Assembly: GCF_900104055.1 (NCBI RefSeq)
Contig: NZ_FNJQ01000008.1
Location: forward strand, 1-64,000
Direction: 5' to 3'
From: Pseudoselenomonas ruminantium
Lineage (GTDB): Bacteria > Bacillota > Negativicutes > Selenomonadales > Selenomonadaceae
Length of the DNA: 64,000 nucleotides
Part shown: piece after piece, positions 851 through 51,057 of the stretch
How positions within the stretch are numbered: position 1 is the stretch's first letter
Layout of the letters: each line of letters begins with the position of its first letter
Position numbers and translations under genes: made by a program
Notes under the pieces: model-generated
The model's database searches: none
Told to the model about the DNA's origin: nothing
The model's input: only the letters and a program-made list of their open reading frames with translations

Positions 851-1556
851 AAATTTACATAAGGCCTTTGGTAAGGTGGAAGTCCTCAAAGGTGTCAATC
901 TCCATATCAAACCGAAAGAAGTCGTGGCGCTTATTGGTCCTTCCGGTTCCGGCAAGAGTACGCTGCTGCGCTGCATGAATTATCTCGAAGAACCCACCGA
1001 CGGCAAGGTCACGGTGGCTGGCACTCCGCTGGATGGCGAAGCCAATATCAACAAGGTACGCGAAGAAGTGGGCATGGTGTTCCAGCGCTTCAACCTGTTT
1101 CCGCATATGACAGCGCTTGAAAACATCATGCTGGCCCCGCTGAAGGTCAAGAAGGTCAGCAAGGAAGAGGCCAGGAAGAAGGCCGAAGAACTTCTGGCAC
1201 GGGTTGGCCTGGCCGATAAGGCCGGCAACTATCCCAGCCAGCTGTCCGGTGGCCAGCAGCAGCGCGTGGCCATCGCCCGGGCATTGGCCATGGAACCGAA
1301 GGTTATGCTTTTTGACGAGCCGACTTCGGCTTTGGACCCGGAAATGGTCGGCGAAGTTCTCGACGTTATGCGCAGCCTCGCAAAAGAGGGGATGACCATG
1401 GCCATCGTCACCCATGAGATGGGCTTTGCCCGGGAAGTTGCCGACCGGGTGCTCTTCATTGACGGCGGCGGCATCTTAGAGCAGGGCACGCCCGCAGAAC
1501 TCTTCGAACATCCGCAGCAGGAAAGAACCAAAAGTTTCCTCTCCAAGGTATTGTAA
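837..1556 (+). CDS. Polar amino-acid ABC transporter, ATP-binding subunit (GlnQ type)
   Basis: Cytoplasmic ATPase powering the importer encoded just upstream. 239 residues. Walker A GPSGSGKS (about residues 31-38), Q-loop [14 protein letters not shown] signature [15 protein letters not shown], Walker [15 protein letters not shown] and the switch histidine in VTHEM are all present, so it should be active. The ATG at 837 is preceded by TGGAGGT at 821-827; an upstream in-frame ATG at 804 would add residues that do not look like the family. No clear terminator follows; the cold-shock gene downstream has its own promoter. Confidence 0.95.
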
Positions 1557-1600
1557 CAGCGAAAAGATTGTGTACATTTGTATACATGTATAAGAAAACA

Positions 1601-1629
1601 TTGACAATTCAATAAGTAACAATTATAAT
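1601..1629 (+). promoter_or_regulatory. Consensus promoter of the cold-shock gene, -10 inside a palindrome
   Basis: TTGACA at 1601-1606, 17-base spacer, TATAAT at 1624-1629. The -10 hexamer sits inside a perfect 18-base palindrome, TAACAATTATAATTGTTA, at 1617-1634. This resembles MarR/OhrR-type operators (ACAATT..AATTGT), so a repressor could occlude the -10; that part is inference. Confidence 0.8.
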
Positions 1630-1686
1630 TGTTATTGAGCCGTCGGAAAGTTAGGCGGCAGGTTTTAAGCAACAGGAGGAATCTCA

Positions 1687-1887
1687 ATGGTCGGTAAAGT
1701 TAAATGGTTCAGCGCTGAAAAAGGTTATGGCTTCATTGCCCGCGAGGATGGGGACGATGTGTTCGTACATTTTTCCGCAATCAATGACGAAGGCTTCAAG
1801 ACTCTGAACGAAGGTCAGGAAGTTGAGTTTGAAATCGTGGAAGGTGCCCGTGGTCCGCAGGCTTCCAACGTAGTCAAAACGGCATAA
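1687..1887 (+). CDS. Cold-shock protein (CspA/CspB family RNA chaperone)
   Basis: 66-residue single cold-shock domain that binds single-stranded RNA and DNA and melts RNA structure. RNP1 (KGYGFI) and RNP2 (VFVHFSAI) are intact and the N terminus MVGKVKWF is canonical. AGGAGG at 1674-1679 sits 7 bases before the ATG. The leader from the promoter is only about 50 bases, shorter than the long thermosensing leader of E. coli cspA. A terminator follows, so it is monocistronic. Other Csp paralogues may exist, so no specific symbol is given. Confidence 0.95.
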
Positions 1888-1908
1888 TTCATTTTATAAC
1901 GCCATAAT

Positions 1909-1939
1909 AACCGCTGGAGAAATCCGGCGGTTTTGTTAT
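1909..1939 (+). terminator. Rho-independent terminator after the cold-shock gene
   Basis: AACCGCTGGA and TCCGGCGGTT pair over ten positions (one G-T wobble) around a GAAA tetraloop, followed by TTTGTTATTTTT. Confidence 0.8.
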
Positions 1940-2062
1940 TTTTAAATAAAAAAGAAGGGTTTTATTCGTTGGCGGCGAATACTAAGAATATAAACCAATA
2001 TAGTTGCTATTTTTACCACAGCAAAATAAGTCTGTGGCAGCATAAGAAAGGGGATGTGTCAT

Positions 2063-2605
2063 ATGGCAACATTCACTGTAAGAGGCAAGAACATCGAGAT
2101 CACTCCTTCCCTGCGTGAATATGTGGAGAAGCGTGTGGGCAAGGTCACCAAGTATTTTGAAAAGGTTGGTGAGATCACAGTCCTCCTTACCGTGTCCAAG
2201 GGACGTCACATCGTAGAGGTTACGGTTCCCGTGCAGAATGGCATTCTGTTGCGCGGTGAAGAAGCCACGATGGATATGTACACGTCGATTGACTTAGTGG
2301 TAGAGAAACTGGAACGTCAGATCCATAAACAGAAAACGAAACTGGCCCGCCGTTTCCGTGGTGGCGGCTTCAAGGCAGAAGCGCTGAAGACACCGCCAAT
2401 GGAAGGTCCGGCCGATGATGATGAATATCAGGTAGTCAAGACCAAGAAATTCGTGGTCAAGCCTATGGATGTACAGGAAGCCATCATGCAGATGAACCTG
2501 CTGAACCATAACTTCTTCGTCTTCCGCAACGCAGAGACGGAGGATGTGCAGGTGGTCTACAAACGCACCGATGGCAATTACGGACTGATTGAATCCGGTA
2601 ACTGA
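2063..2605 (+). CDS. hpf: Ribosome hibernation-promoting factor, long form
   Basis: About 180 residues. The N-terminal HPF/YfiA domain (MATFTVRGKNIEITPSLREY, about 1-100) binds the decoding region of idle 30S subunits. The C-terminal domain (VVKTKKFVVKPMDVQEAIMQ, about 120-180) is found only in long-form HPF and mediates 100S ribosome dimers. The ATG at 2063 has AAAGGGG 9 bases upstream; the in-frame ATG at 2054 touches that site and is unlikely. In many Firmicutes hpf lies next to secA; here about 12.5 kb of signalling genes separate them. Confidence 0.95.
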   Translation: MATFTVRGKNIEITPSLREYVEKRVGKVTKYFEKVGEITVLLTVSKGRHIVEVTVPVQNGILLRGEEATMDMYTSIDLVVEKLERQIHKQKTKLARRFRGGGFKAEALKTPPMEGPADDDEYQVVKTKKFVVKPMDVQEAIMQMNLLNHNFFVFRNAETEDVQVVYKRTDGNYGLIESGN

Positions 2606-2614
2606 ATATAAAAG

Positions 2615-2655
2615 AAGCCTGTGGCAGATGTGATTTTGCCGCAGGCTTTTTTTAT
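2615..2655 (+). terminator. Terminator after hpf
   Basis: AAGCCTGTGGCA pairs with TTGCCGCAGGCTT (one wobble) and is followed by a seven-T run. Confidence 0.85.
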
Positions 2656-2741
2656 ATTCAGGCAGGAATAATATCAGTTGAGCACGAAATGATAGGTAGA
2701 AATTTTATCTGCCTCAACAACGTTGTAAAGGAGGGCATCAT

Positions 2742-4802
2742 ATGAGAAAACCTGACGGCAGTATAAAAACATTGTTCATTGCCTGTATCATCATCATCAC
2801 AGGCGTATTGCTCACCATTCAGACCTTCATCAATGTTGCTCAGTTTCAGGACGGCATGGAAAATCAGGTCAAGAACAGCTTAGGACAGCAGGCGACAGCC
2901 ATCACGAATAAGCTGGACCAGCGTCTGATGCAGGTGGAGCAGAAAACCGCCGGCCTGGAGCTGACGGCCACCCAGCTGAAAGTCTATGATCTGGATATCC
3001 TGTACGGTATGGCCAAGGGCTATATCGAATCGGACAATCTGGTAGTGGGCAGCGGTTATTGGTTTGCACCCAATGCCTATCAGGAGGGACAGGCTTATTT
3101 TGGTCCTTATCTGATTCGTGACGGCGGCACGGTCAAGCTCACGATGGATTACAGCGATACCAGCAAGGGCTATGATTATCAGAAGGAAAAATATTACACA
3201 GAGGCCATGGCTTCGCCGGGCAAGAATATCGTCATCGGCCCCTATCATGAAGAAATTTCCGGACGCAATATGATGACCAGTGCCAGGGCTTTCTCGCAGA
3301 ATGGGCATATCGATGGCGTCATCACCATCACCATGAATATCGATGAGCTCGAAGATTATGTCAAGAATATCCAGGTGGGAGATACGGGCTATGCGTTCCT
3401 CGTCACCCATGATGGTTATTACCTGGCCAGTCGCGATGACAATAAGAACATGAAGGCCAAGATAACGGAAGACAGCAATGCCGAAGTGGCCGCTATTGGG
3501 CAGAAGGCCATCAACGCGCAGGAGCTTATCTTCATGGAGACCTCTGCCTTAGGTGAGGACAGCTATATCATGATTGCGCCATTATACATTGACAATCTGA
3601 AGATTGTTCTCGTGGCGCCTGTGGCCGATTATGCCGGCCCCATCAATAAGGCCAGATACACCAGCATTGTCATGGCTATTGTCGTTATGTTGGTGCTCTG
3701 TGTGGTCCTGATTGGTGTATTCAACCGCCGGGTGGGCAATCCGATCGAACATCTGATGACGGAAGCCGGCAAGATTGCCGATGGCGACCTGCGGGGCCGT
3801 TCGAACATTGCGGCTCGTGATGAAATGGGGGCGCTCGGGGATTCGCTTAATAATATGATTGAAAACCTGCGCAAGGTTATTGGGGATGTCAACAGTATGT
3901 CGGATCAGGTGGCCGCTGCCAGTGAAGAACTGACCGCCAGCGCCGAACAGTCGGCCCAGGCTGCCCATATGGTAGCCGATAGCGTGGTCAGCATAGCCGA
4001 GGGGGCCAGTGAGCAGGCCGTCGAGGCGGGCAATATCCAGGCTACCGCCGAAGATGTTACGCAGCATGCCCAGAATATCGTGAAGGATACCAATACCGTG
4101 CTGCAGAATGCCGTGGCGGCCAAGGAAAAAATCAATGGCGGACGCCGCTCCATACAGGAGGCAGTAGCCCAGATGAATAATATCACGGCCAGCACGGACA
4201 GCATCCAGGTATCCATTGAGAAATTGAACGACAGCTCCAAGCAGATTTCGGACATTGTCCAGATGATTACGAGCATTGCCGAGCAGACGAACCTGCTGGC
4301 ATTGAATGCGGCGATTGAAGCTGCCAGAGCTGGTGAGGCTGGCCGTGGGTTTGCGGTAGTGGCCGATGAAGTGCGCAAGCTGGCTGAAAGTTCCAACCAG
4401 TCTTCTCAGCAGATTGCTGATCTGGTCAAGGGAAACCTGCAGGATATGAAACTGGCGGTAGAGGCCAGTGCCAGTGGCGCCCAGAGCGTGCAGGCGGGGA
4501 TTGATACCGTTCAGTCTGCGGATATCGTCTTCCAGGAAATCGTCAACGTCATTGATGACCTGACCAGACAGATCCAGCGGATTGCCAAGGGCATCGATAC
4601 CATGGCCCAGGAAAATGAACAGATGCTGCAGGCTAGCGTCAATATCGCGAAGACCAGCGGCAAGAATTCGGACGAAGCCCAGTCGGTATCAGCTGCCGGA
4701 CAGGAGCAGAGTGCTTCCATGCATGAGATTTCTGATGCGGCCAGAAGCCTGGCCCAGCTGGCCAGCGACCTGCAGGCTGAGATGCAGAGATTCAAACTTT
4801 AA
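2742..4802 (+). CDS. Methyl-accepting chemotaxis protein with double-Cache sensor
   Basis: 686-residue transmembrane chemoreceptor. TM1 at about 11-30, a periplasmic Cache-type sensor at about 35-300 (contains the GYWFAPN and [10 protein letters not shown] segments usual in dCache), TM2 at about 305-325, HAMP at about 328-382, then a long cytoplasmic coiled coil. The signalling tip [19 protein letters not shown] near residues 513-531 is the hallmark that binds CheA and CheW. AAGGAGGG precedes the ATG. It is followed by a strong terminator, so it is transcribed alone. Ligand unknown; dCache receptors often bind amino acids or organic acids. Confidence 0.93.
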
Positions 4803-4824
4803 AAGAAAATAAGGCAATATAAGG

Positions 4825-4873
4825 AGATGCTGAAAAGATGCGCGCTCAGATGCAGGCTTTTCAGCATCTTTTT
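4825..4873 (+). terminator. Terminator after the first chemoreceptor gene
   Basis: AGATGCTGAAAAG at 4825-4837 and CTTTTCAGCATCT at 4857-4869 form a perfect 13-base stem followed by TTTTC. Confidence 0.9.
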
Positions 4874-5018
4874 CGCTGTTTTCCGTACCCGATGTACCCG
4901 CTAGTTTTTAGAAAATTTTTAGTCTTTAAAAGGATTTGCCTCTTTGATGTAGAAGTAAAAATACACGGATATTTATGGATTTAGGGAGATAATTATAAAA
5001 GAAGAGAGGATGGTTATT

Positions 5019-6998
5019 ATGGGAATACGGCAAAAGTTCTATGTTTTGGCCGGTATCATCGGTGTACTCATGGCTGTCATCTCCATTATCGGCTTCTATA
5101 CAGCGGATAAGAATCTGGAATCCGCTGTCGAGCAGGAACTCAAGTCGACGATGGGCGATGCTGCTTCGCAGATGGATGGCTGGCTGCAGGCCAAGGGGAG
5201 TTCGGCCCAGTACGCCGCAGATCTGATGACGGAATTCAACGGCGATGAAACCCGCCTCAAGAGCATAGCTTCGCTGGCTATCGGTGCCTCGGACAAGGAG
5301 ATCTTGGATCTCAATGTGGGCATGGAGGATGGCTATTTTGCCTCCTACCGCACGCAGAACAAGAGCACAGGCACGTTAGATCCCCGTACCCGTCCCTGGT
5401 ATAATGATGCCAAGAATGCCGGCAAGATGGTCTTCACTGACCCTTATGTGGATAAGAACACGGGCAAGCTCGTGGTATCGGCCGTGGCTCCGTTCAAGAA
5501 AGATGGCCAATTCTATGGTTCGATCTGCACGGATATCGATCTGGCCGTAGTGGATGCCCAGGTGGATAAGGTCAAATACCATGGTGAGGCCGGTATGGCC
5601 GCCGTAGCAGATAAGACGGGCATGATCTTAGGTGTGGGCACCGATGAAGCCATCGGTTCCAAATTTCAGGACCTGCCGGGCATTGGTAGCCGTTTTGAGG
5701 AAATGATGCAAAAGGGTGATGGTGTCTTTGTCTTTGACAGCCCCCGCGATGGCGCGATGATCTGTGGTTACACCAAGGTGCCCAGCACGGGCTGGCTTTT
5801 TGCCATGAGCGTGCCTTATGATTATGTGTTTGCCTCTGTCAGCACGCTGAAACTTGTCTATGGTGTTTTGACCGTAGTGGGGCTTATTCTGGTGCTGGCT
5901 GTCTGCTTCCAGTTCGCCCGCAGGATCACCAATCCCATCGAGGCATTGGAACGCCATGCTCGGGAGATGGCCAAGGGCAATCTGTCTCAGGATAAGCTGG
6001 CGGTTAGCTCCAGTGATGAAATCGGCTCGCTGACGCAGGCCTTCAATACCATGAGCGAGAATTTGAGCGGCCTCATCCGGCAGATGGCCACGACCTCGGA
6101 GCAGGTGGCCGCTTCATCGGAAGAGCTTACCGCCAATGCCCAGCAGTCGGCGGATGCTTCCGTGCATGTAGCAGAGACTGTGGGCGATGTGGTGGGGAAT
6201 GTGGCCCAGCAGCTCAGTGATATCAGCAGTGCCAAGGACAGTGTCGATGGCGTCTACCATGATATTGCGGATATGTCTGCGCAGGCCAAGCATATCACCA
6301 CGGCTTCCCAGCAGACGGCCGAAGCGGCTAAGAAGGGGGCCGACCTGATGGAAGAAGCCATCAAGAAGATGGGCGCCATCGAGCAGAGTGTGCTCTCGTC
6401 CTCGGAAGTCGTCAAGACTCTGGGCGAAAGCTCCCAGCAGATCGGGCAGATTGTCGAGGCCATTTCCTCCATCGCCCAGCAGACGAACCTCCTGTCGCTC
6501 AATGCGGCGATTGAAGCCGCCCGTGCCGGTGAGCAGGGGCGTGGCTTTGCCGTCGTCGCCGAGGAAGTACGCAAGCTGGCCGCTGAATCCCAGGAATCGG
6601 CTGAACAGATCAAAGAGCGCATTGCCTCCATTCAGAACGAGACCAACCGGGCCGTCGAGTCCATGCAGAGCGGTACGGAAGAAGTTACGCTGGGCACGAG
6701 GGCCATCCGGGATGTGGGTGAGCAGTTTGAAGATATCATGAGCAAGGTGGATTCCATCAACAGCCAGATGGAGGCTATCAATACTGCGGTATCTCAGGTA
6801 TCCATTGGTGCCGAACATATCGTCACGGCTGTCGATGCCATCGACAGCATCAGCAACAAGACTTCGGACAGCATGCAGACGATTTCCTCGGCCACTGAAG
6901 AGCAATCGGCTTCCAATGAGGAGATTGCTGCCGCTTCGCAGGCGCTGGCAACGCTGGCCGGCAAGATGCAGGAAGCCGTAGGCAAGTTCCGGGTATAA
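5019..6998 (+). CDS. Methyl-accepting chemotaxis protein with double-Cache sensor
   Basis: 659-residue chemoreceptor. TM1 at about 9-30; Cache sensor to about 270 with the family segment [22 protein letters not shown], which occurs in amino-acid-type dCache domains; TM2 at about 277-297; HAMP to about 350; signalling tip [19 protein letters not shown] near 487-505 (Leu-Ala-Leu is replaced by Leu-Ser-Leu). The ATG at 5019 lies about 9 bases after AGAGAGGA; the in-frame ATG at 5010 overlaps that site. Only 40 bases separate it from the next receptor gene, so the two are probably co-transcribed. Ligand unknown. Confidence 0.92.
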
Positions 6999-7038: not shown

Positions 7039-8772
7039 ATGGGATTCGTGAGGAATTTGAAGGTGGCGCATAAGCTGGCGATTATCGGCGTGCTGGCATT
7101 CATTGCTACCGTGATTGTGGGCTGGGTAGGCTACAGTTCCATCAGGGCCGCCCAGGCGGACATGGAAGAGCTATACAATGAAGACACCATGAGTATTTAC
7201 TACTGTGCCAAGGTACGGTATAACACCCGTTATTCACAGATTCAGGCCAGCCTGCAGCCGTACACCATCCAGCCAGAACGGCGGCAGGACCGGATCAAGA
7301 AATTCAATACCGCCATTGATGAAGCAGAAGAATACATGAAGAAGTATGAGGCCTTGCATGCCAATCATCCCAAGCGGGCTGAGATGGCGGCCAAGGTGCG
7401 CAAGGACTTTGATGTCTATGTGGTAAATGCCAAGAAATTGTTGGAAATGAGTGCCTATGGCGAAGGTGTGGATGAACGCGCACCGATGAACTATTATCAG
7501 GAAAATGTCATGCCGCTGGCCGTGAGCATGTCCTCAGATCTCGAAGCTGTCCAGAGCAGTAATCTGGAAAATGCGCAGCAGGGAATACAAAAAGGCAAAG
7601 AGGATATGAACTCTGCGATTTTTCGCATGACCGTGACCTGTGTGGCCATTATCGTCATCCTGACACTGGCGATCTTCTTCGTGACCAAGCAGATTACCGA
7701 TCCGCTGCAGCTGGTTATCATGGTCTGCGAGAAGCTTTCCCGCGGTGACTTCCGCACGGGCGGCAAGATTGGTACCATCGAGCGCGGCGATGAATTTGGC
7801 CGTATGGAAGCGGCAGTGCGTGATATGCGCATTACCGTCAACAACCTCATCAAGAAGGTCATCACCTCCACCGAGCAGCTGGCAGCTTCCTCGCAGGAGC
7901 TGACGGCCACGGCCCATCAGTCGGCTCTGGCTTCCGAGCAGGTGGCTCAGCGTGTTACGAGCTCTGCCGGTGCAGTCATTGAGCAGCAGAAGGATGTTGA
8001 GGAAGCGATGGACTCCATCGACAATACCATGCACTCCATCGATAATCTCAACCAGACGGCCAGTGAGGTCACGGCCAATGTTACGGAATCCCATAAGCAG
8101 GCGCAGGATGGCAGCAGTGCCATCGGTCATGCTGTCGATAAGATTGTCAGCGTCGAAGAAATTGTCAACAGTTCCACGATTACCGTGGATAAGCTCGGTC
8201 AGCGTTCCCAGGAAATCGGTCAGATCGTCGAGACAATCTCGGGGATCGCCGAGCAGACCAATCTTTTGGCGCTCAACGCTGCTATCGAAGCAGCCCGTGC
8301 CGGTGAGCATGGCCGGGGCTTTGCGGTGGTAGCAGATGAAGTCCGTAAGCTTGCCGAGGAGTCGCAGAATGCCGCCAAACGCATTACCGACCTTATCGGT
8401 GCCATCCAGCATGATACCACGGATGCAGTCAATTCCATGCAGAAGGGCAATACCGCTGTCAAGGAAGGCACGGAATCCGTCAGCCAGCTCAAGGCGGCCT
8501 TTGATAAGATCCTCGAAGCTTCTGATGCTGTGGCCGATAAGGCTCATGGTATGAGCGGCGACCTCAAGATTGTATCCGACGATACGGAAAATGTCCGTAA
8601 CCGTTCCAGCAAGATTTCTGAGAACAGCCGCCGGGTGGCAGCCGATATGGAAAGCGTTTCGGCAGCTGCCGAAGAGCAGTCCGCCGCCGCCGAAGAAATC
8701 GCTTCGGCCAGTGAAGCGCTGGCGCAGCTCGCACACGGCTTGCAGACGGCTGTGGGTGAATTCAAGGTATGA
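7039..8772 (+). CDS. Methyl-accepting chemotaxis protein with four-helix-bundle sensor
   Basis: 577-residue chemoreceptor. TM1 at about 14-33, an all-helical periplasmic region at about 35-190 (4HB_MCP type), TM2 at about 198-215, HAMP, and the signalling tip [19 protein letters not shown] near residue 404. AAGGAG precedes the ATG. It is the second gene of a likely two-receptor operon and ends at a bidirectional terminator shared with the converging permease-kinase gene. Confidence 0.92.
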
Positions 8773-8796
8773 TCACCTCCATGTGACACAATATGA

Positions 8797-8829
8797 AAGG
8801 CGGTGGCCACAATTGCGGCCACCGCTTTT
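8797..8829. terminator. Bidirectional terminator between converging genes
   Basis: GCGGTGGCC-type arm and GGCCACCGC form a 9-base GC-rich stem, with AAAGG on the left and TTTT on the right, placed between the converging genes ending at 8772 and 8843. Confidence 0.75.
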
Positions 8830-8842
8830 CAGCTGCTTTTCT

Positions 8843-11347
8843 TCAGATTGTATTGGCTGCTCCCAGCTCGACATGGATAGGAACCGTGGATTGTTTGGCC
8901 AGCGGCAGGGTCAGGGCAATGATGATTTCGGTGCCCTGACCGTCTTCGGTGTTGATGCTTAGAGTACCATGGAAGAGGTCTATCAGATGCTTGGTAATGG
9001 CCAGACTTTTTTCCGGGCCTTCCAGACGGAAGAGCTGATTCCAATCGCTTTCCTTGAGGATTAGTTCCTTGACTTCAGGGGGCATTATTGCATCAGAATT
9101 GCGGATGCGCAGTTCATAATCAGCGTAAAGCTGGAAGTGGTGATGACTAAAAGCCGCTGATTCCTCGTGATAGGCAAAGCCCTTCTGTGCCAGCGTGACG
9201 GCGATGCTGCCGCCGACAGGTGTGAACATATAGGCCAGACTGATGAGATTCAGCAGGATGCGCTGCAGGCGGTTCTTATCGCAGTAGACGTAGGGATTTT
9301 CAAGCTTTGCGGTATAGACCATGAAATCGATGTTCTTGTCCTGCATCTGTTCCGTGAAGATATCCTTGACCTGTTTGAGGTTGTAGCGGATATCGGTGGG
9401 CACCGGATACAGTTTCAAGGTACTGTCCTGAATGCGGTCTACATGTTCCATTTCCCTGACCAGATGGAGGAAATAATGGCTGATGGAATCGGTATGGACA
9501 ATGCATTCGTAGAGTCCGTTCAGAGCCTCATGGGGACAGCTGGCGGCATTGTTTTTATAGTGTTCGCCGTTTTCCCGCGCCAGATCCACATAACTCATGA
9601 TGGCGTTCATGGTCAGGCTGATGTCATGGGTCATGTTCGACAGGTAAGCTCCACGAGTGCGGCTGGCCATCTGCTGGGCGATGACCGCCTTGTTCATCGC
9701 ATGTTCCCGCTTGCGCATGGTGGTGAAGATATCGGCCATGAACAAAAGGATCAATAGCATAAGTATGATCTGGATCATACTGCTTTGCGTGAGCATCTCG
9801 CGGACAGGTGCATAGCCGCCCATCTGTGCGAGCGGAATCCTTGTGACCATGACCTGTCGCAGCCAGAGGGCTGTGGAAAAGAAGTTCAGGAACAGGAGCA
9901 CGGTACACAGGGAGAAGGACCTGCCAAAGCGTCCCTTTTGGTCATGCTTGAAGACATACCAGTAATAGATAAGGCCCAGCACGCTCCAGACGGCCAGCAG
10001 CAGGTAAGATTCTGTATCCAGCGTGCTGCCGAGCAGCAGATCTGGGACGATGGGGCAGAAGAAAAAGAACAGGGAGAGCACAAGACCGGTAATCCCCATG
10101 AATCTGCCGCCGGTATCCTGCGCAGCCTTTGCTTCCCGGTAGCGGCACAACGAGATATAGGCATAGGCGATGGAGCCGCTGATGGTGATGGCATCCACGA
10201 GCCAGACAATGGCCGTGCGGCCGAGAAACGGAATGGGCAAAGAGACCAAAAGGATCAGGAACACGGTCTTGCGGGGCGTGCCATCTTCGGCCTGACTGGC
10301 AAAGACAGCAGGCAGCAGCTCATCTTTGGCCATGGCCTGCAGCAGGAAGGAACAGCCCCGGTAGAGGCCGTTTATGCCTGTGAAGATACCCGCCAGCACG
10401 GTTGCGGCCAGCAGGGCCATACCGCCCTGGCCCAGCAAGGCATCAACCCCGTGGAAGACGGGCAGGGCATCAAAGCCGTGCAGGTGACTAAGCGAGCTGA
10501 TATACTCGTGCCAGGTGGCAAATTCAGCGGGACTGCCCATGACCGCAATGGCAATGGGCAGGCTGTAGGCCAGGAAGGTGGCGATGACAGCGCCCACGAT
10601 GATGGGAAAGATGCGCTGGATGGGAAAGCGGAATTCCTCACCGCCATGGGTGATGGATTCAAAGCCGAAGAACATCCAGGGAGTCACCATCAGCATACTG
10701 AAAATCTGCAGAAATGGCGTGCCGCCGATATCCGGGTTGAAGGCCGGATAGAAACTGGCATGGCGGGGACTCATGGCCAGAACGCCACTAAAGAGCAGGA
10801 GGATGCCAATGAAAAGCAGTAGGGCCATCAGGGTGTTGACGGGGCGTTTGGCCTTGCCCGCAAAGGCGGAAAAGCAGCCAAAGGCCATCAGCACCAGCCA
10901 GGTGGTGATGATTTCGCCCAGGTAAACATCGAAGCCGGCCAGCTGATAATGGAAGCCCCATTGCAGCACGCTACCAAAGTAGAAGCGCACGAGCACCACC
11001 ACGGCAGTTGCATTGGCCCAGATGATGGACAGGTAGGTGACAATGAGCGCCCAGGCCACGAGAAAGGCGTGGTCATGGCCCATCGCCTCCCGCACATAGG
11101 CGAAGAAGCCGCCGTTATCACGGTATTTCTGCGCCAGCTTGCAGAAGTTGGCCCCGATGATCAGCATGGCGGCACTGCCCAGGGCGATGGCGATGATACT
11201 GCCCACGGGGCCGGCATGAGATAAAAAGAGGTTGCCCGGCATCATGAAGGCCCCCCAGCCCACGGCACAACCGAAGGACAGACCCCAGACGTTCAGGGGA
11301 TAGAGTAGCCGCACATTGGTGTTTTCACTATCTTTGCTCGTGTTCAT
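8843..11347 (-). CDS. APC-family amino-acid permease fused to a degenerate histidine-kinase domain (copy 1)
   Basis: 834 residues. Residues about 14-450 form a multi-spanning APC-superfamily permease (FGCAVGWGAFMMPGN in TM1, the FFGFESITHGGE segment in TM6). More membrane segments follow to about 545, then a cytoplasmic dimerisation and histidine-kinase-like ATPase region. The H-box is SNMTHDISLTM with the candidate phospho-His at 574. The N-box reads NLISLAYMFTP, so the second Asn that coordinates Mg-ATP is Leu; the DxGxG motif is replaced by RNSDAIM; the GxGxG loop is reduced to GPEKSLAI. It therefore looks like a pseudokinase. AGGAG lies 8 bases before the ATG at 11347. It follows its paralogue by 13 bases in one operon. 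Role inferred: amino-acid transport or sensing coupled to signalling. Confidence 0.85.
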   Translation of the reverse strand: MNTSKDSENTNVRLLYPLNVWGLSFGCAVGWGAFMMPGNLFLSHAGPVGSIIAIALGSAAMLIIGANFCKLAQKYRDNGGFFAYVREAMGHDHAFLVAWALIVTYLSIIWANATAVVVLVRFYFGSVLQWGFHYQLAGFDVYLGEIITTWLVLMAFGCFSAFAGKAKRPVNTLMALLLFIGILLLFSGVLAMSPRHASFYPAFNPDIGGTPFLQIFSMLMVTPWMFFGFESITHGGEEFRFPIQRIFPIIVGAVIATFLAYSLPIAIAVMGSPAEFATWHEYISSLSHLHGFDALPVFHGVDALLGQGGMALLAATVLAGIFTGINGLYRGCSFLLQAMAKDELLPAVFASQAEDGTPRKTVFLILLVSLPIPFLGRTAIVWLVDAITISGSIAYAYISLCRYREAKAAQDTGGRFMGITGLVLSLFFFFCPIVPDLLLGSTLDTESYLLLAVWSVLGLIYYWYVFKHDQKGRFGRSFSLCTVLLFLNFFSTALWLRQVMVTRIPLAQMGGYAPVREMLTQSSMIQIILMLLILLFMADIFTTMRKREHAMNKAVIAQQMASRTRGAYLSNMTHDISLTMNAIMSYVDLARENGEHYKNNAASCPHEALNGLYECIVHTDSISHYFLHLVREMEHVDRIQDSTLKLYPVPTDIRYNLKQVKDIFTEQMQDKNIDFMVYTAKLENPYVYCDKNRLQRILLNLISLAYMFTPVGGSIAVTLAQKGFAYHEESAAFSHHHFQLYADYELRIRNSDAIMPPEVKELILKESDWNQLFRLEGPEKSLAITKHLIDLFHGTLSINTEDGQGTEIIIALTLPLAKQSTVPIHVELGAANTI

Positions 11348-11360
11348 AAGCATCTCTCCT

Positions 11361-13829
11361 TTATCCTTCTGCCAGCGGTCCTGTGCCTGCCCAGGCAGGT
11401 TCCGTGGCTGCAAGTGGCAGAGACAGTGTAACGACGATATCCTTGCCCACACTCTGTCCGGGGGCAGTGGTTACTTTGATGGTGCCGCCCAGCAGGGTGA
11501 TAAGTCCCTTGGCGATGCAGAGTCCGCCGAGACCTGTGTCTTCGATTTCGAAGGGTTCGGCCAGATGGGCGATGATGTCCGGGGGCATATTGGCCGCCGA
11601 ATCATTGATATGGATTTCGTAGCTGGCCCCGGGGACAGCCTGTCCCTGATAATTTACGGTGGCCGGGCCGGTCTCGAGCAATGTCACCATGACACCGCCC
11701 CCATTGGGGGTGAATTCGCAGGCGTTGCTGACCAGATTGATGAGGGCGCGCTCCAGGCGTTGACCGTCACAGAGCACATCCGGGTGTGGCAGGTCGATGG
11801 GGTAGACTTCGAAGAAGATGTTCTTGGCCTGCATCTGCAGGGCAAAGATATCCTTGATATGCTGCAAGGTGTGCCGCCAATCCATACGGGCAAAATCCAA
11901 GGGTATTTTGCCCGTATCTATATCGCCCATATTCATATTGCGTTTATCGAGCATGCTGTTGATGAGCTGCATGAGGTACTGGCTGTGGTTATCCAACTGT
12001 CCGAGACAGTTGGATAACCGGTCGGGAATGCGGTTAGGGCAGTTATCCACAGGGCAGGCGGAACAGATAGTACAGTTTTCAAGGGAATGATGCACGGAGG
12101 TCTGGGCCGCTTCCATGGGAATGCGGATATCATGGGCCAGATTGCGCAAATAGGTGTTCTGGGCATGATTGATTTCATGCTGATGGCGCAGTGAATGGAT
12201 CATCCTGCGTTCGCGCCGCTTCAGCGTGATGAAGATATTGGTCATGAGCAGCAGGATGATCATGATCATGACCATCTGTACCATATTGTCAGTGGCCAGC
12301 ACGCTATAATCGGTGGTGGAATCACCGGAAACGGATTCGCGCAGCCGCCGTTCCATGACCTGCTGCAGCCAGAGGCTGGTGGAGAAGAAGTTCAGAAAGA
12401 GGATCATGATGCACATGGAAGTGCTGTGGCCGAAGCGGTCATGACTGTCGTATTTGAATACATACCAATAATAGATGAAGCCCAGGATGCTCCAGACGGA
12501 GAGCATGAGATAGGATTCCGTTTCCAGAGAGCCGCCTAAGAGCAGTCCCGGCAGCAGTGGACAGAAGAAGAACAGGCAGGAAATAAATACACCGAACAGG
12601 CCCAGATACTGGCCACGCTGGCTGCCTTCTCTTTTGGCCAACAGATAGGCACAGTAGGAAGCATAGCCATAAGCGACAGAACCAACTACGGTAATGACAT
12701 CGCAGAGCCAGACAATGGATACGCGTCCCAGGAAGGGAATCAACAGGGAAATGAGCATCACAAAGATAATGGCATTGCGGGGCGTTTCATCGGCGGCCCG
12801 CTTATTGAACCAGGCAGGCAGTATTTCGCATCTGGCCATGAAATGCAGCAGACGCCCGCAGGTGCGGTAAAACCCCATCAGGCTGGTGATGATGGCGCAA
12901 TCGATGGACAGAAAGAGAAAAATCAGTCCATCTGCCCCGAATACCGCATACACACTATGGAAAACCGGCAGCCCGGCCAGACCTTCGAGATTTGGGCGCT
13001 GGGCGATATAGCTTGTCCAGGAGGAAAATTCCGGCGGAATGGACATAATGGCCATGGCAGCCAGCAGAATGTAGATAAGGCCGCCGCTGAGTACGGCCGT
13101 TATGATGATGGGAAAGAGTTTTTTGCTGGGAAAATTAAAATCGTCACAGGCATGGGTAACGGCTTCAAAGCCGAAGAACATCCAGGGAGCCAGCATTACC
13201 ATGCTGAAGACCTGCATGGCGGGATTGGTATAGGTTTGGAAGGCCGGCTTGAATACGCTCGTACCTACCTGACTGAACATGGCTGCGAACAGGATAATGA
13301 CAGACATGAAAAAGAGGATGGCGCAAAAGGTGTTCAAATAGCGGGCCAGCTTGCCGCTATAGCAGGTGAACAGACCGAAGACGATAATGAACATCCAGAC
13401 CGCCAGTACCTCACCAAAGTAGATGTCAAAGCCGGCAATGCTGTAGAGATAGCCCCAGGAGAGGATATCCCCGATAAGGAAGCGGAATAGCAGAACATTG
13501 GCGGTGGCGTTGGCCCAGAGGATGGAAAGATAGGCAATCAGGAGAATCCAGGCCGCCAGGAAGGCGTGGTCATGGCCGATGATGTTGCGGACATAGGCCA
13601 CGATGCCGCCGTCGTCATGGTATTTTTCGGCCAGCCGGCAGAAATTGGCGCCGATAACCAGAAGCAGCGCCGTACTGATGCCCATGGCCAGTATGGTCCC
13701 CAGCGGCCCTGCCGTGGGGATGAAGAGATTGGCCGGCACCATAAAAGCACCCCAGCCCACAGCACAGCCCAGGGAAAGAGCCCAGACATGGATGGGGGAG
13801 AGCAAATGAGACGAATCGCGATTAACCAT
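11361..13829 (-). CDS. APC-family amino-acid permease fused to a histidine-kinase domain (copy 2)
   Basis: 822 residues with the same plan as the following gene: APC permease (LGCAVGWGAFMVPAN, APWMFFGFEAVTHACDD), extra membrane helices to about 540, then HisKA-like helix and HATPase. The candidate phospho-His is 566 in RNLAHDIRIPM. The N-box NLVSNACEFTPNGG keeps both asparagines; the DxGxG motif is weak (NDSAANMPP); the glycine loop GLGGLCIAKGL is largely kept. ATP binding is therefore more plausible here than in copy 1. A Cys-rich stretch CTICSACPVDNCP lies just after the H-box helix. AAGGAG precedes the ATG by about 11 bases. No response-regulator gene is adjacent. First gene of a two-gene operon. 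Confidence 0.85.
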   Translation of the reverse strand: MVNRDSSHLLSPIHVWALSLGCAVGWGAFMVPANLFIPTAGPLGTILAMGISTALLLVIGANFCRLAEKYHDDGGIVAYVRNIIGHDHAFLAAWILLIAYLSILWANATANVLLFRFLIGDILSWGYLYSIAGFDIYFGEVLAVWMFIIVFGLFTCYSGKLARYLNTFCAILFFMSVIILFAAMFSQVGTSVFKPAFQTYTNPAMQVFSMVMLAPWMFFGFEAVTHACDDFNFPSKKLFPIIITAVLSGGLIYILLAAMAIMSIPPEFSSWTSYIAQRPNLEGLAGLPVFHSVYAVFGADGLIFLFLSIDCAIITSLMGFYRTCGRLLHFMARCEILPAWFNKRAADETPRNAIIFVMLISLLIPFLGRVSIVWLCDVITVVGSVAYGYASYCAYLLAKREGSQRGQYLGLFGVFISCLFFFCPLLPGLLLGGSLETESYLMLSVWSILGFIYYWYVFKYDSHDRFGHSTSMCIMILFLNFFSTSLWLQQVMERRLRESVSGDSTTDYSVLATDNMVQMVMIMIILLLMTNIFITLKRRERRMIHSLRHQHEINHAQNTYLRNLAHDIRIPMEAAQTSVHHSLENCTICSACPVDNCPNRIPDRLSNCLGQLDNHSQYLMQLINSMLDKRNMNMGDIDTGKIPLDFARMDWRHTLQHIKDIFALQMQAKNIFFEVYPIDLPHPDVLCDGQRLERALINLVSNACEFTPNGGGVMVTLLETGPATVNYQGQAVPGASYEIHINDSAANMPPDIIAHLAEPFEIEDTGLGGLCIAKGLITLLGGTIKVTTAPGQSVGKDIVVTLSLPLAATEPAWAGTGPLAEG

Positions 13830-13921: not shown

Positions 13922-13952
13922 ACGAAAAAAAGCCTTCCCCATTGGGGAAGGC
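13922..13952 (-). terminator. Terminator after cheB
   Basis: On the minus strand AGCCTTCCCC and GGGGAAGGCT form a 10-base stem followed by TTTTTTTCG. It separates cheB from the permease-kinase operon. Confidence 0.88.
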
Positions 13953-13959
13953 TATATTA

Positions 13960-15078
13960 TTATCGTGCAATCTTGCAGATTGCGTCGGGAATGCTAAGCA
14001 GAGGCAGCTGCTGTTGTACGGCGCCCATTTCAAAGGCAGCCTTGGGCATGCCGTAGACAGTGGAGCTGGCGGCATCCTGGCCGATGGTGGGGGAGCCGAG
14101 CTGGCGCATCTTGAGGAGACCTGCAGCGCCATCCTTGCCAATACCCGTGAGGATGATTCCCATGGCATGATTGCCGGCCACGTCGGCCACGCTGTCAAAG
14201 AGTACGTCAACGGACGGACATACACTGTGTACCGGCGGCCCGGGCTTGCATTCGAGCATATAGCGCGTGCCCATGCGGGAGATGGTCATATGCTTGGCAC
14301 CCGGAGCGATGTAGACGTGATTGGGCAGCACCACATCACCGCTGACGGCTTCCTTGACGGTCAGCCGGCTTTCCGTATTGAGGCGCTCGGAAAACAGCTT
14401 GGAGAACATCGGCGGGATATGCTGGACGATGACGATGCCCGGCAGGGGCGGTTCGAGTTTCGTGATTATGGCAGACAGGGCCTCGGTGCCGCCGGTGGAG
14501 GCGCCGATGGCAATCAGGTCGATATGGGCCGCGTTGGGAGGTACGTTGATCATGGGCTCGATGGGAGACGGCGCCGGTTTGGGCGGTGGAGGCGGCTGCA
14601 CCGGCCGGGAGGCGCGCCAGATTTCCCGGGTGACCACGGCCCCGCCGCCGATATCCCCCGGGGGGGTGACGGCGGCCGTACCATTCTTGCTCTGGGAAAC
14701 CAGCAATGTGCGCATCAGGTTATTCAGGAACGGCTCCATAGGCTGGCCTACGGAGGGTTTTTTCAGATAATGGGCGGCACCGAGGATCTTGGCGGCTTTT
14801 TCGCCGCTTTCCAGGATGCCATAAGTGATGATGGGTACCTGAGAATACTTTTTCGCCAGCAGTGGCAGAAACTTCTCCTGATTGACCATCAGGGAGCCCA
14901 GGGCAAAGTTCAGGACGATGATATCGGGCTTGAACACAGCCATCTTGTCCAGGGCTTCGGCCGGCTGGCCAGCGTGTTCCACGAGGCTGCCGCTGGGGAG
15001 ACGCTTCGTAAGCTCTTGCACCAGAGTGTTTTGAAACATTATGGAGTTGTCAATGGCAAACACCCGTAAGTTTCGCAT
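13960..15078 (-). CDS. cheB: Chemotaxis methylesterase/glutamine deamidase CheB with an altered receiver domain
   Basis: 372 residues. CheB removes methyl groups from receptor glutamates. The C-terminal catalytic domain (about 185-370) has the triad Ser194 (GASTGGTEA), His220 (IVVQH-like IVIVQHIPP) and Asp316 (GIGKDGAAG). The N-terminal CheY-like domain (1-120) is abnormal: the phospho-acceptor Asp is Asn57 (IIVLNFAL) and the acidic pair is Asp10-Asn11, while Thr85 and Lys107 are kept. Phosphorylation by CheA should not be possible in the usual way. A Pro-rich linker (160-172) joins the domains. GGAGGAG precedes the ATG. No cheR, cheA or cheW is nearby, so this may be a specialised second CheB. 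Confidence 0.92.
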   Translation of the reverse strand: MRNLRVFAIDNSIMFQNTLVQELTKRLPSGSLVEHAGQPAEALDKMAVFKPDIIVLNFALGSLMVNQEKFLPLLAKKYSQVPIITYGILESGEKAAKILGAAHYLKKPSVGQPMEPFLNNLMRTLLVSQSKNGTAAVTPPGDIGGGAVVTREIWRASRPVQPPPPPKPAPSPIEPMINVPPNAAHIDLIAIGASTGGTEALSAIITKLEPPLPGIVIVQHIPPMFSKLFSERLNTESRLTVKEAVSGDVVLPNHVYIAPGAKHMTISRMGTRYMLECKPGPPVHSVCPSVDVLFDSVADVAGNHAMGIILTGIGKDGAAGLLKMRQLGSPTIGQDAASSTVYGMPKAAFEMGAVQQQLPLLSIPDAICKIAR

Positions 15079-44430: not shown

Positions 44431-44472
44431 AAGGGGCTGTTGCATATCATTGGGCTGCAACAGTCCTTTTTT
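44431..44472 (+). terminator. Terminator after folB
   Basis: GGCTGTTGCA pairs with TGCAACAGTC (one wobble) and is followed by CTTTTTT. Confidence 0.85.
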
Positions 44473-44571
44473 ATATGTGCTTGTCGAATTACTGCGAATT
44501 TAGAGGTTTTTTTCTTTTGGACGCCGAATATCTCTACAGTTAGGATTGTCATAGAGAGGAATGGGGCTTTG

Positions 44572-46821
44572 ATGGATACAATTATGCAAATCAACGGGGT
44601 GATAAATCACTTTGTTTGGGGGGCTCCCGGTCTGACCTTGCTCGTGGGGACAGGCGTCTATCTGACACTTTTGCTGGGAATCCCTCAGCTCCGCTATTTT
44701 TTCCCAGCAGTGGCTGAAGTCTTCAGCTTCCGGGAAAAAAGCGAAGAGGATAAATCGATTTCATCATTTGCGGCGATGACTACGGCTATGGCCGCTACAG
44801 TGGGTACGGGCAACGTGGCAGGGGTAGCCACAGCACTTCATCTGGGGGGGCCGGGAGCATTGGTCTGGATGCTCATTTCGGCCTTCTTTGGCATGAGTAC
44901 CAAGTTCGCTGAAGTTACGCTGGCCATGCATTTCCGGCAAAGGGATGCCCATGGCGATTGGCGCGGCGGCCCCATGTATATCCTAGAACATGGCTTGGGG
45001 CTGTGGGGTGGCGCATGGAAGCATATCGGGAAGCTGCTGGCGGTCTTGTTCGCCCTGTTTGTGTCCGTGGGATCCCTGGGGATTGGGGCGGCTGTGCAGG
45101 CGAACTCCGCAGCTGAGGTGCTGTTCATGGGCTGGAATATAGACCCGATAAACAGCGGTGTCATTATGGCGGTGGCGGTAGGGATGGTCATTATCGGCGG
45201 CATCGTGAGCCTCTCCCGTGTGACGGTGATTGTTGTTCCCTTCATGATTGTTTTTTATCTGGTGAGCACCAGCATCATTCTGGTGGGGCATGCAGGTCAA
45301 ATTCCTGCGGTTATTGCCGAAACCTTCCGCATGGCTTTTACCCCGGATACATCGGTTATTGCCGGGGGCGTGGCAGGCTGGGTCGTTATGCAAGCTGTTC
45401 AGCGGGGGATCGCTCGCGGCGTATTTTCCAATGAGGCTGGGATGGGGTCTGCCCCTATGGCCTATGCTACGGCGGAAAGCATTCATCCTGTGCAGACGGG
45501 ATTTTATGGCATTTTTGAAGTGTTCCTGGATACCTTTGTCATCTGCACCGTTACGGGACTGGCCATCCTGGTGACCGGCGCTATGACCTACTACCCGGAC
45601 CTGACGGGGGGGCAGCTGGCACTTCAGTCATTTGAGATGGCGCTGGGACAGGCTGGCAAGTACATCCTTTCCATTGGGGTGATGCTCTTTGCCGTTACGA
45701 CGATATTGGGGTGGTATTGGTACGCAGAGACAGCATCGACATATCTGCTGGGGGTGCGATTCAAGCCAGTCATGAAACTGCTGTTTATCGTCATGATTAT
45801 CCTTGGTGCCTCCGGCGCACAGTTGTTTGATGCTTCCGGCAATGAATACCTGAACAATGTATGGGATATCTCGGATACGCTCAACGGGCTCATGGCCGTT
45901 CCCAACCTGATAGGCCTGCTGCTTCTTTCCTTGATGCTCAAGCGGATTGTCAAGGATTATGATGCGTTGAATGAAGGTGTCAGACCAGAGAGAAATCCGC
46001 GCTCACAGGAACTGCGGAAGCTGCTACTGGTGTCTGTTTGTGCGGTATTGCTGCCGATAGCCATAATCACCTATGGGGGCGGTTCGCAAAATGTTGTCCA
46101 TGAAAAAGATGTTTCCCTGCAAAAAGTGTTGGACAGCGGACGGCTTGTTTTCGGTTTTGATGACAATTTTCCACCCATGAGCTATCCCGACGAAAATGGA
46201 GAAATGGTCGGATTTGACATCGATTTGGGCCGCGAGATTTGTTCCCGGCTGGGGGTGGAGTACGTAGCACGGCCAATCGCTTGGAAAGACAGGGATGATG
46301 AACTGTATGGCAGGAATATAGACTGCGTCTGCGGTATGTCGGTGTTCCACAAGGTAATCCCCGATATGTGCCTGTCGGAAACCTATGTAAAGGATAATTT
46401 GGTTTTTGTGGTTCGCGGCGATAGCAGCATTATGTGGATGCGCGATATCAAAGGCAAAGTGATTGGTGTGCAGGAGGGCTCCACAACATTATATGCCCTG
46501 AAGGAAGCGGATATCTATAAGGACTCTAAGGTTGTACTTTTGGCTGACAATATGGTGGTTCTCCAGAAGTTGAAGGAGGGAAAACTGGATGCGGGCTTGG
46601 TGGATTCGTTGGCCGCATTTTATTTTATCCGTTCCAGCAGTGAGCGGTATTTTATCCTTCAGGAAATCCTGGGCGAAGAGGATTTGGCCTTGGGATTCAG
46701 GCGTGATGACAAAGAGCTGCGAGACAGGGTGCAGAACATCATCAGTGAGATGAGAGCTGACGGGACCTTGGGGAAAATCTCCCAAAAGTGGTTTGGCAGT
46801 GATATTATGCTCGTTCGGTAA
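44572..46821 (+). CDS. Sodium:alanine symporter (AGCS) fused to a periplasmic solute-binding domain (SBP family 3)
   Basis: 749 residues. Residues about 1-465 are a full AGCS symporter (GNVAGVATALHLGGPGALVWM, NEAGMGSAPMAYATA). An extra hydrophobic helix at about 484-503 (LLLVSVCAVLLPIAIITY) is followed by a complete SBP_bac_3 domain at about 517-745 (RLVFGFDDNFPPMSYPDENG; VIGVQEGSTTLYALKEA). The extra helix would place the binding domain outside the membrane. In the binding domain the ITxER motif whose Arg holds the amino-acid carboxylate reads SVFHKV, so Arg is missing. AGAGAGGA precedes the ATG by 11 bases. Operon with a hybrid kinase and a GGDEF regulator. I know of no standard family with this architecture. 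Confidence 0.85.
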   Translation: MDTIMQINGVINHFVWGAPGLTLLVGTGVYLTLLLGIPQLRYFFPAVAEVFSFREKSEEDKSISSFAAMTTAMAATVGTGNVAGVATALHLGGPGALVWMLISAFFGMSTKFAEVTLAMHFRQRDAHGDWRGGPMYILEHGLGLWGGAWKHIGKLLAVLFALFVSVGSLGIGAAVQANSAAEVLFMGWNIDPINSGVIMAVAVGMVIIGGIVSLSRVTVIVVPFMIVFYLVSTSIILVGHAGQIPAVIAETFRMAFTPDTSVIAGGVAGWVVMQAVQRGIARGVFSNEAGMGSAPMAYATAESIHPVQTGFYGIFEVFLDTFVICTVTGLAILVTGAMTYYPDLTGGQLALQSFEMALGQAGKYILSIGVMLFAVTTILGWYWYAETASTYLLGVRFKPVMKLLFIVMIILGASGAQLFDASGNEYLNNVWDISDTLNGLMAVPNLIGLLLLSLMLKRIVKDYDALNEGVRPERNPRSQELRKLLLVSVCAVLLPIAIITYGGGSQNVVHEKDVSLQKVLDSGRLVFGFDDNFPPMSYPDENGEMVGFDIDLGREICSRLGVEYVARPIAWKDRDDELYGRNIDCVCGMSVFHKVIPDMCLSETYVKDNLVFVVRGDSSIMWMRDIKGKVIGVQEGSTTLYALKEADIYKDSKVVLLADNMVVLQKLKEGKLDAGLVDSLAAFYFIRSSSERYFILQEILGEEDLALGFRRDDKELRDRVQNIISEMRADGTLGKISQKWFGSDIMLVR

Positions 46822-46841
46822 TCTCTGTCAGGAGGAATAAA

Positions 46842-49692: not shown

Positions 49693-51057
49693 ATGGGCTA
49701 TTGGATTGTTGTTGTGGATGATGAGACCATGACACTGACACAGGTGAAAAGCATTTTGCGGGAACAGGATATGCGAGTCAGCTGCCTGCGTTCCGGGCGG
49801 GATCTTTTGAAATTCATGGAAAAGAACACACCGGATCTGATTCTGCTGGATATACAGATGCCGGAGATGGATGGGTTTGAAGCCTATCAGGAATTGCGGC
49901 GCTTGGAGGAGGCTGCCGGGCGAGGTCCTACTCCCATCATATTCCTGAGTGGCGTAGAGACCAGTGAGGCGGAGCGGCGCAGTCTTGAGCAGGGGGCGTC
50001 CGATTTCATCCGCAAACCTATTCATAAGGAGGTTCTCTGCAAACGTATCTTGAACGCGGTCAAACATACCAAGGATATCGAAATCTTGAAAGAAGAAGCG
50101 GCCCTGGACAAGCTGACCGGCTTTTTGAACAAGGCAGCTGGAACCGTCAGACTGACCAAGCTCTGTGCTGAACAGACTGGCATGCTGCTGATTTTAGACC
50201 TCGACAATTTCAAGATGGTCAATGATATCTATGGTCATAGTATGGGCGATAAGTTCTTGGTGGCTTTCGCCGATGTCGTCCGGCGCAACATCAGGGGACA
50301 GGATGTTATGGCAAGAGTCGGCGGGGACGAATTCATGGGCTTTTTTATCAACATGAGGGATGAAACTGCGTTGCATAGCCTGCATCAGAGGCTGAATGAG
50401 CAGCTGCTCAAAGAGGCGGTCAGATTGGCCGGCGACGATTTTGACATTCCGCTGAGTATTTCCATAGGTGCAGCGTTGGTGCCGGAGCACGGACGCGATT
50501 ATGAATCTCTGTTTCCGTTGGCAGACAGTGCTCTTTACAAGGTAAAACAGAATGGCAAGAACGGCAGCAGGATATATGGGCCGGAGGGAGACGCAGCTGC
50601 GGCTGGTGATAATGATATCAAAAAGGAGTTTGATCATATCATGCAGATTGTCGAGGGCTGGCATAGAGGCGGGGGGGCGCCTGCTATGAATCTGGAGCAG
50701 TTCTCCCTGCTCTATCGTTTCGTCCAGCAGTTCTATAAGCGATATGGCGGCATGGTCGTCAAACTCATGTTCATCCTATCGGAAGAAGATACTGCCGAGC
50801 CACGCCCCTACACCCTGACAGATGCTGCGGAAAAGTTTGGGCTCTGCCTGCAGGATACACTGCGAAAAAGTGATATGATACTGCGGCATAAGCCCAATCA
50901 GTTTCTTGTGTTGCTGCAGAATCTTTCGGAGAAGGACTTTCCCATTGTTTTCCGACGGATTATGAACGTTTGGGAGGCAGGGAAAAAACACACTGGCATT
51001 CATATCGAATATCTCATGGAGTATGTCATCTATGAGAAAGAAAACTATGATAAGTGA
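49693..51057 (+). CDS. Response regulator diguanylate cyclase (REC-GGDEF, plus a degenerate GGDEF-like C terminus)
   Basis: 454 residues. Receiver 1-120 with acidic pair Asp9/Asp10, acceptor Asp53 (LILLDIQMPEMDG) and Lys108. The GGDEF domain about 135-290 has the intact active site GGDEF at 210-214 and the inhibitory I-site RGQD at 201-204 with five residues between, so it should make c-di-GMP with product feedback. The last 130 residues (SDMILRHKPNQFLVLLQNL) look like a second, degenerate GGDEF fold. It is 52 bases after the hybrid kinase gene. Output of the symporter-kinase system is therefore c-di-GMP, by inference. Confidence 0.92.
   Translation: MGYWIVVVDDETMTLTQVKSILREQDMRVSCLRSGRDLLKFMEKNTPDLILLDIQMPEMDGFEAYQELRRLEEAAGRGPTPIIFLSGVETSEAERRSLEQGASDFIRKPIHKEVLCKRILNAVKHTKDIEILKEEAALDKLTGFLNKAAGTVRLTKLCAEQTGMLLILDLDNFKMVNDIYGHSMGDKFLVAFADVVRRNIRGQDVMARVGGDEFMGFFINMRDETALHSLHQRLNEQLLKEAVRLAGDDFDIPLSISIGAALVPEHGRDYESLFPLADSALYKVKQNGKNGSRIYGPEGDAAAAGDNDIKKEFDHIMQIVEGWHRGGGAPAMNLEQFSLLYRFVQQFYKRYGGMVVKLMFILSEEDTAEPRPYTLTDAAEKFGLCLQDTLRKSDMILRHKPNQFLVLLQNLSEKDFPIVFRRIMNVWEAGKKHTGIHIEYLMEYVIYEKENYDK

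Follow-up and report, generated by a model that had tools for sequence, protein, structure and literature searches.

Two adjacent bacterial genes, here called A and B, each join an APC-type amino acid permease to a histidine kinase-like module, and we judge, on balance and with some reserve, that their products are paralogous transporter-fold receptors (transceptors) that form a heteromer and deliver their output in trans to the motility/chemotaxis machinery. The underlying architecture is shown by sequence analysis and structure prediction: a permease, a two-helix transmembrane (TM) hairpin, a predicted unbroken helix that runs into the DHp domain, and a CA domain. The window (the whole stretch of 64,000 nucleotides analyzed) lies on contig C46 of a 3.2-Mb Selenomonadaceae genome that is 99.98% complete. 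The two genes are as follows.

11361..13829, minus strand: gene A (upstream), 822 amino acids, ATG start; permease plus kinase module (open reading frame, Pfam, AlphaFold)
Gene A, parts by residue: APC permease, ~10-470; TM hairpin, ~470-540; DHp with His566-Asp567, ~545-640; CA/HATPase, ~650-805
8843..11347, minus strand: gene B (downstream), 834 amino acids, ATG at 11347; architecture as in A; predicted pseudokinase

The first-pass annotation had described two adjacent co-directional genes with a 13-base gap, and both open reading frames were indeed found, with 13 nt between the stop codon of A and the ATG of B and an AGGAG ahead of that ATG. Its proposal that each gene couples an APC permease to a kinase-like module, with a HATPase fold that an HMM search should detect, also holds. 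In Pfam, AA_permease_2 (PF13520) scores 64.9 bits in A and 58.2 in B (cut-off 27), a second permease model, AA_permease (PF00324), scores 55.8 and 62.1 bits (cut-off 24.6), and these matches span the first ~460 residues of both proteins; HATPase_c scores 50.4 bits at residues 688-804 of A and 30.6 bits at 690-816 of B (cut-off 26.4). The HisKA model stays below its Pfam cut-off in A (18.2 versus 26.9 bits) and has no Pfam match in B, although the His-Asp pair is present in both, and no C-terminal receiver was matched by Pfam in either protein. By profile and fold, both proteins are members of the APC transporter family; amino acid transport itself is only putative.

AlphaFold models, built from 46 relatives for A and 39 for B, reach mean pLDDT values of 81.7 and 80.5. 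The modeled permease of A (residues 5-470) aligns with AdiC over 421 residues (Z 40.8, rmsd 2.9), and that of B (residues 10-478) does so over the same length (Z 39.6, rmsd 3.1), so that each N-terminus is predicted to be a complete 12-TM LeuT-type 5+5 fold. This fold is common to AdiC, BasC and the LAT-type APC transporters (Z up to 40.8 over 421 residues), but identity to these proteins is only ~14-17%, A and B carry a signaling C-terminus, and a GWG signature in TM1 and a GF[DE] signature in TM6 set their subfamily apart. Beyond the 12 permease helices, the model of A shows a TM helix (470-500), a short outer loop, and then a helix of ~83 residues (508-590) that takes in the final TM segment, the linker and the first DHp helix, which bears His566; the corresponding single long helix in B is 512-598. 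The predicted continuity from membrane to DHp leaves no space for a STAC or PAS domain, and neither was matched by Pfam between membrane and DHp at E<=1 in A or B. In Foldseek searches, the C-terminus of A matches the kinase regions of RetS, GacS and DivL as well as kinase-ATP complexes.

To our knowledge, transporter-kinase fusions have been described as rare, mainly among SSS (CbrA) and Amt proteins. The parallel with CbrA that had been drawn at the outset is sound in principle, in that a transporter fold is joined to a kinase, but the fold in A and B is APC. CbrA and CrbS, and the SLC5-STAC proteins fused to diguanylate cyclases, from Pseudomonas and others, likewise place a LeuT-fold transporter N-terminal to an output (PMC7096432, PMC13022988). 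CbrA and CrbS combine an SSS/SLC5 transporter with STAC and PAS domains, whereas in A and B an APC domain leads from the membrane helix directly into DHp; A and B also differ from CbrA in their tandem arrangement, in their degenerate catalytic motifs and in having no adjoining CbrB-type regulator. Membership of A and B in the SSS/CbrA group was rejected, since they contain no SSF domain (only the AA_permease models match) and no STAC or PAS. CbrA (SLC5-STAC-PAS-HK) is both a histidine transporter and an autophosphorylating kinase, yet its kinase activity is not altered by histidine in vitro (PMC7096432), which counts against a ligand-to-kinase reading for A and B. Ks-Amt5 of Candidatus Kuenenia, in which the Amt domain acts as an ammonium sensor (PMC5764959) and which a review of histidine kinases gives as its transporter-fusion example (PMC8534201), also uses a transporter fold as kinase input, and is a precedent for the retention of binding with loss of transport. 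It differs in its Amt trimer fold, its regulated autophosphorylation and its single gene. We judge the A/B family to be a genuine addition to the transporter-kinase receptors typified by CbrA and Ks-Amt5, with a transporter fold that is new in this role.

The permease-kinase fusion is confirmed as real, and not a chance event, by its conservation across many genomes. The near relatives of A fall on 19 contigs, all from Selenomonas or Anaerovibrio, and A of Selenomonas ruminantium HD4 is 83% identical to A of the window. Matches to A occur in 131 of 189 Selenomonadaceae genomes, the weak ones (~1e-20 to 1e-32) not being the fusion. The concern that permease and kinase halves might usually be separate genes, and the fusion rare, was not substantiated: beyond the 21 genomes with the pair, roughly 85-90 others in the Selenomonadaceae contain the fusion as one hybrid gene. 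A profile of the permease alone matches 113 of 380 genomes of the class, nearly all through fusions and a few through stand-alone permeases. Outside the Selenomonadaceae, fusions occur in a second Negativicutes family (four genomes), and in a family from another class of the same phylum 10 of 150 genomes match, mostly as fusions. A search of plasmids yielded APC permeases solely in stand-alone form, plus one kinase-like match that is unrelated.

The commonest relative is one gene of ~930-1000 amino acids with the order AA_permease_2 - HisKA - HATPase_c - Response_reg. Pairing is therefore not the rule, as might have been supposed from the window; most relatives are unpaired hybrid kinases with a receiver. 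Other relatives end in two receivers (L173, L175), in GGDEF (L183, and L121, two in tandem at 904-5593), in PAS-GGDEF (L176) or in GGDEF-REC-GGDEF-EAL (L174, L177). Because the outputs vary in this way, the permease looks like a common, exchangeable input module. In a permease tree, every fusion falls into one clade apart from the stand-alone permeases (support 100/100), and the GGDEF proteins that were included fall among the hybrid kinases. The permeases of A and B share a clade with those of the AA_permease-HisKA-HATPase-REC proteins, in which the receiver is present while A and B have none; B is monophyletic (96/86), and A forms two groups, one of them beside two hybrid kinases. The tree was rooted at its midpoint, so any direction of evolution is one that we infer.

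No description of APC-kinase or APC-GGDEF fusions was found in the literature, of which subscription papers were mostly outside coverage so that absence is unproven, and the literature on pseudokinase-CheB systems, Selenomonas and taurine-APC transport likewise gave none. The APC-fold kinase fusions form a large family, apparently not described before, whose members seem to be transporters that bacteria have converted into receptors for sensing nutrients. With them, a third transporter fold joins the modular signaling inputs, one that is widespread and has at least five output types. The GGDEF-bearing proteins (L121, L183, L176, L174, L177) are candidate transporter-gated c-di-GMP enzymes. At L189 (3574-8097), a hybrid permease kinase is directly followed by a REC-GGDEF-EAL protein that is plausibly its cognate output. 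A short rhodanese-like gene (~125-140 amino acids, lipoprotein-like start) lies directly 3' of the hybrid permease-kinase at seven loci (L057, L062, L069, L072, L127, L129 and L130), the frame at L129 being 233 amino acids.

The suggestion that the two genes of the window are duplicates was correct. Gene A was found in 21 genomes from three genus-level groups (g1, which includes S. ruminantium; g3, Anaerovibrio; and g22), and its paralogue B adjoins it in tandem in all 21, so far as contig ends permit. Identity between A and B is ~51% over the permease and 37% over the kinase portion, and the pair appears to derive from one old duplication of the single hybrid kinases of this family. The 23 hybrids all contain the His, the Asp, Thr at His+4, both N-box Asn, DxGxG and GxGxG. 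The His-Asp pair is invariant in hybrids and pair proteins together (58/58; 35/35 in the pair proteins alone), but the phosphatase-motif position His+4, Thr in 23/23 hybrids, is Ile or Leu in 35/35 A and B proteins. Among the Selenomonas/Anaerovibrio A proteins, both N-box Asn and the G1 Asp are retained (12/12), while the second G1 Gly, the two G2 Gly (12/12) and ~8 ATP-lid residues are gone. The B proteins of these genera have lost the second N-box Asn throughout (0/13 retained), the G1 Asp in 9/13 (it is kept in 4/13) and most of the G2 Gly; in B of the window the second N-box Asn is Leu, the G1 Asp is Asn and the G2 glycines are absent.

A complete set of N, G1 and G2 boxes is thus present in neither A nor B. 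From these motifs, B of the Selenomonas/Anaerovibrio lineage is a predicted pseudokinase, and A, with its lid ~8 residues shorter and its G2 glycines lost in 12/12, may be catalytically dead too. The first description of the genes as kinases accordingly needs revision: the kinase module is there, but with the phosphatase Thr and the ATP-lid/G2 glycines lost from both, these are not ordinary kinases. The g22 pair, which retains the N-box and the G1 Asp in both A and B, looks like an intermediate stage of the decay. In one lineage, then, a duplicated fusion lost catalytic motifs unequally in its two copies, giving a natural series from intact hybrid kinase through a partly decayed pair to a pair with a pseudokinase, in which one can ask how a transport cycle becomes a signal and what role a pseudokinase partner plays.

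Degenerate motifs in B might suggest an artifact or decaying pseudogenes left by a recent fusion. However, across all domains of A and B, including the degenerate CA domain of B, S. ruminantium orthologues give dN/dS values of 0.06-0.27, which argues that neither gene is a pseudogene; the frames are open except in one draft copy, and conservation is deep. A chance reading frame or pseudogene is ruled out by the conservation and dN/dS values, and we give the artifact reading virtually no credence. The one interrupted copy is A of the draft MAG RUG14411 (L015:4236-6619), split by a frameshift or stop that is possibly an assembly error. A further idea is that the kinase module serves transport, with A and B being transporters whose uptake is controlled by what was once a kinase domain at the C-terminus, signaling being minor or absent. 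An intact and well conserved permease (dN/dS 0.06-0.19 in A and B) would fit this idea, as would histidine transport by CbrA, which is independent of its kinase (PMC7096432). However, the same permease clade bears catalytically complete HK-REC, GGDEF and GGDEF-EAL outputs, which argues for an input role and makes the transport explanation quite improbable.

In the model that we favor, a small amino compound would be bound or transported and would thereby move the permease; this motion would twist or piston the continuous helix and so set the state of DHp. A and B would most likely act as a heteromeric complex, A being the subunit with residual catalytic or phospho-acceptor capacity (it retains the His, both N-box Asn and the G1 Asp) and B its regulatory pseudokinase partner. 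RetS is a precedent for a kinase fold with altered catalysis that acts through partner regulation. DivL is likewise an atypical kinase with a role in partner regulation (PMC9430884). DivL and RetS, both among the Foldseek matches, resemble A and B in retaining the DHp-CA fold with altered catalysis, but they have no transporter domain and are only ~17-22% identical in sequence. Because the internal receiver has been lost from both A and B, output would be in trans to a receiver, most plausibly within the surrounding motility/chemotaxis apparatus, where the neighboring cheB2 provides one candidate partner.

A partnership between A and B is supported by their co-retention (21/21) and by the ordered decay of motifs around an invariant His-Asp (58/58). 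A and B diverge in step (r 0.94/0.97), as expected from shared species history, so that this correlation by itself is no proof of contact. One could instead suppose that A and B each form a homodimer and act independently, as receptors or kinases that differ in ligand and output, that the tandem reflects co-regulation only, and that B alone is a phosphorylation-independent scaffold. The limited identity between them (~51% and 37%) would fit, as would the single-gene relatives, which function without a partner paralogue. Yet strict co-retention with tight spacing across three genera, together with motif loss that is asymmetric between A and B, makes independent homodimers possible but rather unlikely.

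The genes around the pair are the following.

2742..4802, plus strand: MCP1, dCache-HAMP-MCPsignal
5010..6998, plus strand: MCP2, dCache-HAMP-MCPsignal; also adjoins cheB2 in genomes without A/B
7039..8772, plus strand: MCP3, 4HB-MCPsignal; converges on B
8785..8840, minus strand: terminator-like inverted repeat, GCGGTGGCC..GGCCACCGC, following B, in the gap where B and MCP3 converge
13925..13958, minus strand: terminator-like hairpin plus T-run (from sequence), between cheB2 and A; similar element in five Selenomonas relatives
13960..15078, minus strand: cheB2, CheB-type methylesterase, directly upstream of A; Asn at the receiver phospho-Asp site

The chemotaxis setting noted earlier is therefore evident, with three MCPs and cheB2 near the pair, though MCP proximity alone does not demonstrate coupling to chemotaxis. 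The statement that no response regulator is adjacent is correct for DNA-binding regulators, of which the A/B flanks contain none, but it overlooked a CheB with a degenerate receiver directly upstream of A. The methylesterase domain of cheB2 (PF01339) scores 201.7 bits, and the catalytic Ser/His/Asp motifs are retained in all sequences aligned; the phospho-Asp site is Asn in 21/21 aligned cheB2 proteins and Asp in the canonical CheB (G000:C51:68595-69131), the only other CheB of the genome, which lies beside its only CheA. In 10 of 10 other Selenomonas/Anaerovibrio pair loci examined, cheB2 is directly upstream of A while the outer flanks vary. At four Anaerovibrio loci cheB2 and A are 12 nt apart and a ribosome-binding site is present, which makes a cheB2-A-B operon likely there; in Selenomonas ~120-150 nt with the terminator-like hairpin intervene, and the g22 pairs have no cheB2 alongside. 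The same Asn is found in genomes without A/B (G147, G159 and others) and recurs across the Selenomonadaceae, which rules out that the pair caused the decay of the cheB2 receiver. In G159 (mcp2-cheB2-secA-prfB) and G147 (mcp2-cheB2), the gene order is that of the window minus A, B and mcp3; at loci L142 and L140, which have mcp2-cheB2(-secA-prfB) and lack this block, it was either lost or inserted. The CheB neighbor of A is thus real and conserved, but a dependence of cheB2 on A/B is only putative.

This arrangement raises the idea that the A/B complex is phosphorylation-independent and that its ligand governs whether the CheB2 receiver docks on DHp, both being degenerate; this docking would gate the methylesterase and tune MCP methylation. 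The constant position of cheB2 despite differing outer flanks, the 12-nt gaps in Anaerovibrio, and the degeneracy of both partners (with the Asn in 21/21 and catalytic motifs retained) are all consistent with docking. Against it stand the Asn-bearing cheB2 of genomes without the pair, the g22 pairs that have no adjoining cheB2, the hairpin between cheB2 and A in Selenomonas, and the invariant His566, which pure docking would not need; we regard it as unlikely. The general form of the proposal, that a transporter-fold heteromeric receptor gates a non-phosphorylatable CheB by docking without phosphotransfer, is in our estimate slightly more doubtful again. If true, it would give chemotaxis an adaptation input that is coupled to nutrient uptake and independent of CheA.

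The window contains a second transporter/kinase cluster at 44440-49640, where a sodium:alanine symporter (AGCS) domain fused to an extracellular solute-binding domain (SBP_bac_3) is directly followed by a dCache-HisKA-HATPase-REC-Hpt hybrid kinase and then by a REC-GGDEF regulator (49693-51057). A stand-alone sodium:solute symporter (SSF) lies at 54588-56066.

A hint about the ligand comes from the closest stand-alone permeases, which share the TM1 G[WF]G and TM6 GF[DE] signatures. Several neighbor genes for the breakdown of omega-amino acids, of the taurine/GABA type. Five of these relatives adjoin class-III aminotransferases, among them loci that also carry sulfoacetaldehyde acetyltransferase (Xsc; L122), alanine dehydrogenase (L123), Fe-ADH (L187) or, in Ilyobacter, GabT with 4-hydroxybutyrate dehydrogenase (L192); a sixth adjoins D-cysteate sulfo-lyase (L126). 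Stand-alone relatives on Staphylococcus plasmids have uninformative neighbors. Our best guess for the ligand of A and B is an omega-amino acid such as taurine, GABA or beta-alanine, a weak suggestion because the stand-alone permeases are only ~30% identical to the fusions. At L178 (3481-6099), near a class-III aminotransferase, an APC permease is fused in frame to an iron-containing alcohol dehydrogenase, possibly a case of transporter-enzyme channeling of an omega-amino acid.
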